39,900 bases of DNA from Armatimonadota bacterium (lineage in GTDB: Bacteria; Armatimonadota; UBA5829; JAUSEB01): the NCBI GenBank assembly GCA_030650495.1, contig JAUSEB010000161.1, positions 1-39,900 on the forward strand, in the 5' to 3' direction. Shown here in pieces: positions 5,677-9,794 of the stretch. Each line of letters begins with the position of its first letter. The stretch's first letter is position 1. Below the pieces are notes generated by a model that did not search any database, had not been told where the DNA came from, and saw only the letters and a list, made by a program, of their open reading frames with translations. The position numbers and the translations under genes were made by a program.

Positions 5677-8343
5677 ATGCGCTGGTTGCTGAACAGCATT
5701 TTATCTTTACTCATCCTCGCTTCGTGGCCGCAATTGAGCGGAGCCGTCGTTCTGGTTGATGAGGACTTCAACTCATGGGCAAAAGTCCCTGGTCCAGGCT
5801 GGCAGATGTCCGCGAAGCCGGGGGGAACTGTGGAGCTTGTGGCGGATGAAATGGGCGGGAAAGCCGTTAAGGCGTCTTCCCCATTGAACGGCAGTTCTTA
5901 TATCAGCCGTTCCCTGGGTGGGAGCTATTCTGAGCTGTATGTCTCGCTGCGCGTCAAAATAGTGTCATTCAATCAGGGAAATACTATAGAGCAGCAAAGA
6001 GACAAGGGGAATATTTTGCTGCTGCTTGGCGAGGCTGACGGAAGAACTAGATGGCGCACGAGTCTAACGCTCGAATCATCCCATCATGACTTGTTGATGA
6101 CGCTTTTCACGAGCCAGATGGGACTCCACAAGACAGGGCCGACATGGTCCAGAGGCGAGACTCTGGACATCGGTTTTGGCATCAAATACGGCAAGCAGGG
6201 CTTCCTCAAGTTCTATTACGGCGGCGCGAAAACTTACGAGATCAATTATGACACGACCGCTCCAAATCTGCCGAACAGCATCAGCGATCTGCGAATCGGC
6301 GCTCATGACGGAGCTGGTCTTGCAGTAGTTATAGACAATGCCAGGGTTGCAACATCCGAAGACGAAGCCGGTGTCCTAGCAAAAGTTGACTTGTCCCCCA
6401 GCCCGCTTGTGATCAGCGTTGACAGCCAAAAGGTTCTGAGGCCCGTAAACTTCGACTGTTTCGGCGTCGGCGCCGGGTCGCCTTCAGACCAGACTCCTTA
6501 TTCCAATCTCAAGGCGGCGACTCTACCCATGGGTTTCACATCCGTCAGATGGATGCCGGGCGGCGCGTACGGCGGGTTGGACTGGGACGCGGACGAGGAT
6601 GTCCCCGGGCTTTCTTCACGACCATTCTATTTTAAGGAAAGAGACTCCTCATCACGTCTTGGGAAGAACGGGCGGTCGTTTGAAGAACACTTGGACTACT
6701 TTGGCGCCGATCCACAGTTGGTATGCGTGACCGGCGGCGACTACACCGGAAAGAAACTGGATGGACCGAATGGCTGGGTTCATTACAATGAGAAACGAGG
6801 ACGCCGTGACTGCATTTATGAAATAGGCAACGAGTGCGAATTGACGCAGCGGCCACAGGATTGTTATGTGTTTACCGGCGACAAATGGGATCAAATCTGC
6901 AATGGTGTAATCCGCTGGCCTCCTCCTGGCCCTCAGCGTATCGAGCAATCGTTGCTGCATTATGGCGGGGAGAAGGATCCTGATTATGATTATACTTTTC
7001 CATTGAACAATAAAGGAGCGGCCGTTTACCTCGGTTTCGGGTATCGCTGGGACGGGTGCCGCATCAAATTGGCCAGAGCCGGCGTTGGTGATGCAAAACT
7101 CGGTTGGGCAATCTGGACCGGAACAGGCTGGGAAATCGTGCACGATGGCAGACCCGGTGGAAAATCCTACTTGATGACTCAGCATGGCAAGATTGATGAT
7201 TTGCGCGATATACGCAATCTTACTGCGTCAACGGCGAACGCATATTGGTCAGATTCATTCCATCTGCCCGGCGGACCTTTTGAGCGGTGGAAGCGGACTT
7301 CAGCGCGCGCATTATCCGGCGGTTCCATTCAAAGTGATAAGGAGCTTTATTACGTCAAAATCTGGACGCTCAGTGGTTCTTACACCGGTGGCGAACCCAG
7401 GGAAGGCCAAATATCATTAGGCATTGCGACTCCAGAATATCTGGCTGTCGGCAGAACGTATGCCGAAGTCATCAGGAAAAACGGCGGAACTGCTTTCGCA
7501 AGCTCCGCAACTCTGGATATTCGTCCCGGCTGGCTTGATATGCTTGAGCGGCTGGCGCCGGCAATTGACGGATTGGCGTTCCATAGCTACCCGTCTACTT
7601 CTGTGGATTGGGGTATACCGGAATGGCGACGGATAGGACAGAGCACATATACCACGGCGCTGTATGACGTTGAATGGATGCGGAAAATGGCTGAAGAGCT
7701 GCGCGCCAGGAAAGCGTTCACCGGAAAGAAACTGGCTCTGACCGAATGGAATTCAGGCGGCGCTGAGTATATCGGAGGGCTCAGCACGGCAATTGCTTTA
7801 TGCGAAATATTAAAAGGCGGATGGGATTCAGCGCAGCGTTATTCATGGCTCACTCTTTGGCAGCATCGAAACCTCTCGGATTCCGTGGCAAGCGATTCCG
7901 GTCTCTTAGCTTCTAAGTCCCCCAAGAAAGACACCGAATTCTTCGAAAGGCCAAGCGCGACTGCCTTTAAGCTGATCCGCCACACCGCCAAGTCGAATCT
8001 CATACAGGCTAAGTGTTACTACAAAGGACCGAATGGAGCCAGAGATTACTCAGGTGTATATGTCTGTGGATTCGAGGGGGCGAGCAAGACCGATAAGGCG
8101 CTGATGATAGTCAACCGTACGGATATTGATTTGCCTGGCATTCCTATTCAATGGAAAAGCGCGGCGGGACTGAAGTTTCGGGTCGTCGCTTTGGAGTCAA
8201 CAGCGGGAGTCCATGGCAACAATGAAGGCGATAAACCGCAAGTAGGAGTGGTTGGAAAGCCGGCGATCACGTTCTCGCGGACTGGTGAGGCGCGCATAAC
8301 GCTTCCGGCTTACAGTCTCTATGTGCTTGAGGTTCTGCGTTGA
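5677..8343 (+). CDS. Secreted glycoside hydrolase-like protein (clan GH-A type) with N-terminal LamG/ConA-like domain and an internal insertion
   Basis: Signal peptide MRWLLNSILSLLILASWPQLSGA; YEIGNE (candidate acid/base Glu, codon 6832-6834), LALTEWNSGG (candidate nucleophile Glu, codon 7744-7746), LAFHSYP. GGAGG before ATG 5677. Confidence 0.65.
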   Translation: MRWLLNSILSLLILASWPQLSGAVVLVDEDFNSWAKVPGPGWQMSAKPGGTVELVADEMGGKAVKASSPLNGSSYISRSLGGSYSELYVSLRVKIVSFNQGNTIEQQRDKGNILLLLGEADGRTRWRTSLTLESSHHDLLMTLFTSQMGLHKTGPTWSRGETLDIGFGIKYGKQGFLKFYYGGAKTYEINYDTTAPNLPNSISDLRIGAHDGAGLAVVIDNARVATSEDEAGVLAKVDLSPSPLVISVDSQKVLRPVNFDCFGVGAGSPSDQTPYSNLKAATLPMGFTSVRWMPGGAYGGLDWDADEDVPGLSSRPFYFKERDSSSRLGKNGRSFEEHLDYFGADPQLVCVTGGDYTGKKLDGPNGWVHYNEKRGRRDCIYEIGNECELTQRPQDCYVFTGDKWDQICNGVIRWPPPGPQRIEQSLLHYGGEKDPDYDYTFPLNNKGAAVYLGFGYRWDGCRIKLARAGVGDAKLGWAIWTGTGWEIVHDGRPGGKSYLMTQHGKIDDLRDIRNLTASTANAYWSDSFHLPGGPFERWKRTSARALSGGSIQSDKELYYVKIWTLSGSYTGGEPREGQISLGIATPEYLAVGRTYAEVIRKNGGTAFASSATLDIRPGWLDMLERLAPAIDGLAFHSYPSTSVDWGIPEWRRIGQSTYTTALYDVEWMRKMAEELRARKAFTGKKLALTEWNSGGAEYIGGLSTAIALCEILKGGWDSAQRYSWLTLWQHRNLSDSVASDSGLLASKSPKKDTEFFERPSATAFKLIRHTAKSNLIQAKCYYKGPNGARDYSGVYVCGFEGASKTDKALMIVNRTDIDLPGIPIQWKSAAGLKFRVVALESTAGVHGNNEGDKPQVGVVGKPAITFSRTGEARITLPAYSLYVLEVLR

Positions 8344-8353
8344 TTCCCGGCTT

Positions 8354-8517
8354 GTAACAGTTCAGAGTTGGTTAGCAATACCCCCCTCAATCCCCCCTTC
8401 TAAAGGGGGGAAGTGTCGTAGCTCCCCCTTCTAAAGGGGGGAAGCGCCGTAGCTCCCCTCCTTACGAAGGAGGGGTTGGGGGAGGTCAAATCGTACTCAC
8501 CAAGCCTGAACTGTTAC
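8354..8517. mobile_element. MITE-like non-autonomous element, 164 bp, 12-bp perfect TIRs (GTAACAGTTCAG), 8-bp target duplication CCCGGCTT; possibly IS66-related
   Basis: TIRs at 8354-8365 and 8506-8517 (19/22 identity when extended). CCCGGCTT at 8346-8353 and 8518-8525 directly abuts both ends. Interior holds three C-rich/G-rich hairpins. Confidence 0.82.
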
Positions 8518-8552
8518 CCCGGCTTTTCCGAGCGCCTTAGAAGAGCCTTATA

Positions 8553-8561
8553 TGGTATAAT
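8553..8561 (+). promoter_or_regulatory. Extended -10 element TGGTATAAT close to the GT4 start codon
   Basis: TGG-TATAAT, 9 nt upstream of ATG 8571; no clear Shine-Dalgarno sequence. Confidence 0.45.
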
Positions 8562-8570
8562 TGAGCCGGA

Positions 8571-9794
8571 ATGAGAGTTCTTGTATGCAACAAGTTTTAC
8601 AGACCGTTCGGCGGACCTGAGACCCAGGTATTGGAAAGCTCCAAGCTGCTCGAAGCTGATGGGCATGATGTCATACCGTTTTCCATGGCTCATCCTGACA
8701 ACTGGCCCACGCAGTGGTCCCGCTTCTTCGTATCGCAGGTAGATTACCATGCCAATCCCGGCTTGTTGTCGCGCGTCAAGGAAGCCACGAGCATTGTTTA
8801 TTCATCTGAGGCAAAGCGCAAGATGGAAGCGTTATTGGATGAAGCGCGACCCGATCTTGCCCACGCGCACAACATCTATCATCAACTGTCACCATCAATA
8901 TTCGGGCCGATTAAAAAACGCGGGATTCCTATAGTCATGAGCCTGCATGATTACAAACTCGCATGTCCGAATATGCTTTTTCACACCGAGGGCGAGGTGT
9001 GCGAGAGATGCTGTGGCGGGAAGTTCTTCAACGCGATAATTCACAAATGCGTATTTGGAAGCACAGCCGCCAGCGCCGTCTGCGCTTTTGAAATGTATGT
9101 TCATCGCCTGCTGGGAATGTATAAAAAGAACGTGGATGTCTTCATATCGCCAAGCCGGTTTTTGATTAACGCGCTCACGCGCTGCGGGGCGGGCGGCAAG
9201 CGGATGGTCCATATACCGGCGCTTGCGGATGTAGACGCCTATAACCCCAGCTATGACAACGACGGATATATTCTTTACTTCGGCAAACTGACACCTGAAA
9301 AAGGCGTAAAGACGTTGATAAGAGCGGTTGCCCTTATGGAATCAGCCAGGCTTGTGGTTGCGGGTACAGGTTCCCAAGGGCCGGAACTGGAAGCAATGGC
9401 GGAGGAGTTGGCCCCAGGGAGGGTGGAGTTCGCTGGCTTCCTCACGGGCGAAAAGCTCAGGCGTGTTGTGGAGCGCTGCATGTTTCTAGTTGTTCCCTCA
9501 GAATGGTACGAGAACTGTCCGGCGACCGTTCTCGAGGCATATTCGGCAGGAAAACCAGTAATAGGAAGCCGTATCGGCGGCGTCCCCGAGTTGATAAATG
9601 AAGGCGTGGATGGTTTTCTATTCCAGCCTGGGAATCATGAGGAGTTGGCGGAGAAGATCGGCTCGCTAATTCATAATCAGGCGCGTATTGTTGAAATGGG
9701 AAAAATCGGAAGAGCAAAAATGGAGCGGGAATACTCACGGCAGGCTCACTACCAAAAGTTAATGGACCTCTACCACGAATTAGTCCCCGTATAG
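8571..9794 (+). CDS. Glycosyltransferase family 4 protein
   Basis: CNKFYRPFGGPETQ N-terminus, LYFGKLTPEKGVKTLIRA, VVPSEWYENCPATVLEAYSAGKPVIGSRIGGVPELI. Confidence 0.92.
   Translation: MRVLVCNKFYRPFGGPETQVLESSKLLEADGHDVIPFSMAHPDNWPTQWSRFFVSQVDYHANPGLLSRVKEATSIVYSSEAKRKMEALLDEARPDLAHAHNIYHQLSPSIFGPIKKRGIPIVMSLHDYKLACPNMLFHTEGEVCERCCGGKFFNAIIHKCVFGSTAASAVCAFEMYVHRLLGMYKKNVDVFISPSRFLINALTRCGAGGKRMVHIPALADVDAYNPSYDNDGYILYFGKLTPEKGVKTLIRAVALMESARLVVAGTGSQGPELEAMAEELAPGRVEFAGFLTGEKLRRVVERCMFLVVPSEWYENCPATVLEAYSAGKPVIGSRIGGVPELINEGVDGFLFQPGNHEELAEKIGSLIHNQARIVEMGKIGRAKMEREYSRQAHYQKLMDLYHELVPV

Follow-up and report, generated by a model that had tools for sequence, protein, structure and literature searches.

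Organization of the locus

The window analyzed in this study, a stretch of 39,900 nucleotides, is a contig of a fragmented Armatimonadota genome assembly (3.59 Mb, 464 contigs; hereafter the host). It contains a 164-bp element (8354-8517) in the intergenic region between a gene at 5677-8343 and a GT4-type glycosyltransferase gene (8571-9794, plus strand; Pfam PF00534, E 2e-33; PF13439, E 2e-10). The upstream gene encodes an 888-aa protein with a 54% identical relative in the family-level relative G001. An earlier note called it a glycoside hydrolase, but we found no Pfam match and this annotation is thus unproven here. The element is flanked by two exact, directly abutting copies of the 8-bp sequence CCCGGCTT (8346-8353 and 8518-8525). 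Its 12-nt tip GTAACAGTTCAG (8354-8365) has a perfect reverse complement at 8506-8517, and the terminal inverted repeats extend to 22-nt arms with 19/22 matches (86% complementary), specifically GTAACAGTTCAGAGTTGGTTAG on the plus strand (8354-8375) and GTAACAGTTCAGGCTTGGTGAG read on the minus strand (8496-8517). The earlier note had described these features correctly to the base.

The interior comprises a palindromic core (8380-8486, plus strand; ACCCCCCTCAAT...GGGGGAGGT) with three C/G-rich hairpins. Hairpins at 8391-8411 and 8455-8475 have 9-bp perfect arms each, and two tandem 31-nt units (8393-8423 and 8424-8454, plus strand) are 94% alike. The 164-nt strand folds at -93.2 kcal/mol against a mean of -55.4 for shuffled sequences (z -9.1), while comparison with Rfam gave only sub-threshold hits. 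Downstream of the element lies a predicted extended -10 element of the GT4 gene, TATGGTATAAT (8551-8561, plus strand), of which TATAAT begins 38 bp after the right tip. This predicted -10 box ends only 9 nt before the ATG of the GT4 gene (8551-8573), so the transcript would be leaderless or nearly so.

A multicopy family with distinct 8-bp duplications

Using blastn, the 180 bp comprising the element and its duplications matched 64 pieces in the host genome. The 12-nt tip occurs 98 times (48 and 50) with at most one mismatch, against 14 times (5 and 9) for the reversed control, and a chance inverted repeat can therefore be rejected. Pairing of tips in the retrieved loci yielded elements of 125, 133, 135, 156, and 164 bp and a few longer ones, with 23 pairs having perfect 8-bp duplications. 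After deduplication and with longer flanks, 30 host elements have at most one mismatch in the duplication, 22 of them being exact. Over three genomes, 61 of 62 exact duplications are distinct. Copies of 133 bp carry one 31-nt unit, while the copy in the window carries two. A 48-bp pair of tips facing each other almost without interior (locus L050, 1017-1064, host contig C55) could be the smallest member or a deletion remnant. In named genomes, the exact tip pattern was found in one record, Armatimonadota bacterium E14_metabat.bin.108, and a G001 contig matches the record JAUSGG010000181.1 of this bacterium in length and tip.

Relationship to IS66 elements

The host holds one full IS66-family transposase gene, a single ORF of 470 aa (PF03050, E 8e-41; NCBIfam IS66, 250 bits). 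Its right end reads GTATGAGTTCAGTTCTCCGGGAG and the left end shares GAGTTCAGTTCTCCGG, both matching the 135-bp MITE subfamily (GTATCAGTTCAGTTCTGYGGGA). A second copy's 3' end and an internally deleted copy (residues 10-87 joined to 410-458) are also present in the host. Both IS66-type copies on host contigs C395 and C446 have a MITE or a MITE-like end directly next to their left tip. No IS66 copy with the exact GTAACAGTTCAG tip was found in the incomplete host assembly. In related genomes, however, complete single-ORF IS66 elements carry tips close to that of the window. The 1.44-kb element in genome G002 has the tip GTAACAGCTCAGTCTTGATGAGTA and an exact duplication CGTATTCT, and the element in genome G140 has the tip GTAAAAGTTCAGTCTTGGTGAGA and an exact duplication GCAAAAGA. 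The transposases with these tips match IS66 models only (PF03050 and NF033517), and the better-matching ones are about 50-63% identical to that of the host. Two other tip-rich genomes, G095 (239 exact tips) and G011 (39 exact tips), show no PF03050 match, the transposase being either lost, unassembled, or too diverged.

The earlier note proposed a non-autonomous IS66-derived MITE, and this interpretation is supported. Inverted repeats of IS66 elements typically start with GTAA, as does GTAACAGTTCAG, and IS66 members with 8-bp repeats have been described (PMC3281130). Derivation of the interior from IS66 by internal deletion is not supported. The hairpin core (ACCCCCCTCAAT ... GGGGGAGGTT) occurs without a detectable IS66 tip at several host loci (contigs C44, C47, C110:21606, C243:8433, C124, and C331), and parts of it occur in other families of the phylum (genomes G020, G045, and G056). 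In G001, elements with the same tips contain a different palindrome (CACCCTCACCCTAACCCTCTCCC...), which this genome also has outside the elements. The element is therefore composed of IS66 ends around a palindromic repeat of the host.

Position of the elements relative to predicted promoters

Comparison of the flanks revealed predicted promoters at a fixed place. Exact TATAAT reading away from the element lies 26-39 bp from a tip in 10 of 30 host elements (1.36% of random intergenic sites; p 5e-12) and in 9 of 46 G001 elements (0.55%; p 4e-12). TTGAC at 3-14 bp occurs in 16 of 46 G001 elements (1.6%; p 1e-17) and 5 of 30 host elements (1.5%; p 8e-5). In the third, distantly related genome G095, exact outward TATAAT falls five times at 25-39 bp and nowhere else among 25 tip flanks. 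Over 80 elements, 43 have a -10 of at least 6 bits at 20-45 bp, against 7-13 in other intervals of the same width. The inward-reading control at 20-45 bp is 19, partly because the motif is nearly palindromic and the region AT-rich. About half of the elements have no good -10 in the interval tested, and we should note that the promoters are predicted by motif only.

The offsets form two discrete groups. In the first group (29 elements), the -10 lies at 24-34 bp with the consensus TTGAC...G.TATAAT, and in the second group (14 elements) it lies at 37-40 bp with the consensus TGGTATAAT and no clear -35. The duplications show no strong consensus. The window belongs to the second group with its offset of 38, and the earlier note had rightly placed the insertion between the upstream stop codon and the GT4 promoter. 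IS66 elements behave alike: the G002 copy sits on TTGACA-17-TATTCT, and the internally deleted host copy on TTGACC-17-TAAAAT ahead of a tRNA-like sequence. Not every intact IS66 relative shows a clear promoter, as loci L137, L144, and L291 do not.

No genome of the same species or genus as the host was found, and orthologous loci were compared with G001, which belongs to another genus. At host locus L049, the only locus where the order of events could be tested, the G001 orthologue has no element but has TTGACA-17-TATACT, and alignable sequence starts at TTGACA, where the host's element lies. The promoter is thus older than the element at this locus. At another orthologous intergenic region, host and G001 were hit independently, at 37 and 30 bp from the -10, with different duplications. 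The G001 orthologue of the window site (contig C183, between the homologues of the 5677-8343 and 8571-9794 genes) also carries a MITE with IS66 tips but a different palindromic interior, its tip being 38 nt from the conserved TATGGTATAAT, in the same orientation and with a nearly identical right end. The earlier note had listed conservation at orthologous positions as part of a refutation, but promoter targeting can explain it.

Interpretation and alternative explanations

Taken together, 8354-8517 is most probably a MITE moved in trans by a single-ORF IS66-family transposase that acts on its GTAA-starting inverted repeats and makes 8-bp duplications, and its insertion looks promoter-directed. 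We hold this explanation with good confidence, although the targeting itself is inferred from the strong enrichment of predicted sigma-70 promoters at fixed distances reading away from one tip. Transposition would be steered most simply by the promoter-bound RNA polymerase or by promoter DNA structure, joining the element just upstream of the -35 box or 37-40 bp upstream of an extended -10 box. Insertion there keeps the core promoter but replaces upstream DNA with a strong palindrome. It is about as likely as not that a clade of single-ORF IS66 transposases has independently evolved recognition of the promoter-bound RNA polymerase, as proposed for TnGBS, and that its MITEs use this to place palindromic cargo, taken from the host's own repeat families, immediately upstream of many promoters.

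Random insertion followed by purifying selection, with only those copies surviving that spare genes and promoters, would account for the sharp lower limit (almost no -10 closer than 24 bp). We consider it unlikely, since selection predicts a broad spread upstream of promoters whereas exact TATAAT counts are 19 at 26-39 bp and 3 at 40-149 bp (p 1e-15). Moreover, random intergenic sites lack the signal, as do stand-alone hairpins in G001 (0 of 44 flanks), and the two discrete offset groups also speak against it. The orthologous MITE in G001 leaves open an insertion inherited at the window site from the common ancestor of both genera and kept there, perhaps as a regulatory part of the GT4 promoter, with its interior replaced in one lineage. 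This is not fully excluded but appears improbable, and we favor a repeat hit on one promoter: the window duplication is perfect while the surrounding intergenic region has diverged, the interiors are different repeats, the G001 copy has no recognizable duplication, and other orthologous loci in G001 lack the element.

Some MITEs have outward promoters (MITEAba12, PMC6382973), but it is very unlikely that the present element carries or creates the promoters itself. The -35 and -10 lie outside the element and its duplication, flank sequences differ between copies, and the promoter at L049 persists in G001 where the element is absent. It is similarly unlikely that a promoter-targeting transposase of another family (ISLre2 or ISKra4) moves these MITEs and that the IS66 tips are a mere resemblance, even though G095 and G011 have many tips without a PF03050 match. 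Complete elements with these tips and 8-bp duplications encode IS66 transposases, and one of them sits at a promoter itself. PF06782 (ISLre2) was not found in four tip-rich genomes, in a search that had no positive control and is thus uninformative.

Comparison with known systems

Single-ORF (ISBst12-like) members of the IS66 family share the IS66 DDE transposase (PF03050, NF033517), inverted repeats starting with GTAA, and 8-bp duplications, and the 1.44-kb elements contain no tnpA or tnpB. The MITE has no transposase and holds an unrelated palindromic core. To our knowledge, fixed spacing from promoters has not been described for IS66, as judged from the open-access literature and without a search of ISfinder. 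Within the same limits, we found nothing on point on IS66 and MITEs, and no report on transposases of Armatimonadetes.

TnGBS, ISLre2, and some ISKra4-group elements also insert at a fixed short distance upstream of sigma-A/sigma-70 promoters, and contact with RNA polymerase was proposed (PMC3942029). These elements belong to the Mutator superfamily, an unrelated transposase family, and IS66 is not mentioned in that paper. TnGBS and its relatives insert 15-17 bp upstream of the -35, whereas here the -35 mostly starts 1-11 bp from the tip, with the second class spaced 37-40 bp from an extended -10. The promoter-directed DDE transposition that we could find in bacteria is confined to the Mutator superfamily. 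A second, separate family with this habit would make the question of how a bacterial transposase finds promoters testable by comparison, supplying two discrete spacing classes to model on the RNA polymerase complex and marking promoters in the poorly studied Armatimonadota. It would also show a MITE changing promoter-upstream DNA at many sites while sparing the core promoter.

Other bacterial MITEs are likewise short and transposase-less, with tips taken to come from a parent IS, but have other parent families: IS982 for MITECca01 (PMC9769881), possibly IS5 for MITEPsy1 (PMC3189936), and ISAba12 with 9-bp duplications for MITEAba12 (PMC6382973). No fixed promoter spacing was encountered in the parts of these reports that we consulted. 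Finally, the C/G-rich hairpin core resembles REP-like palindromic repeats in being a dispersed palindromic repeat in several Armatimonadota genomes, but here it lies between IS66 ends.
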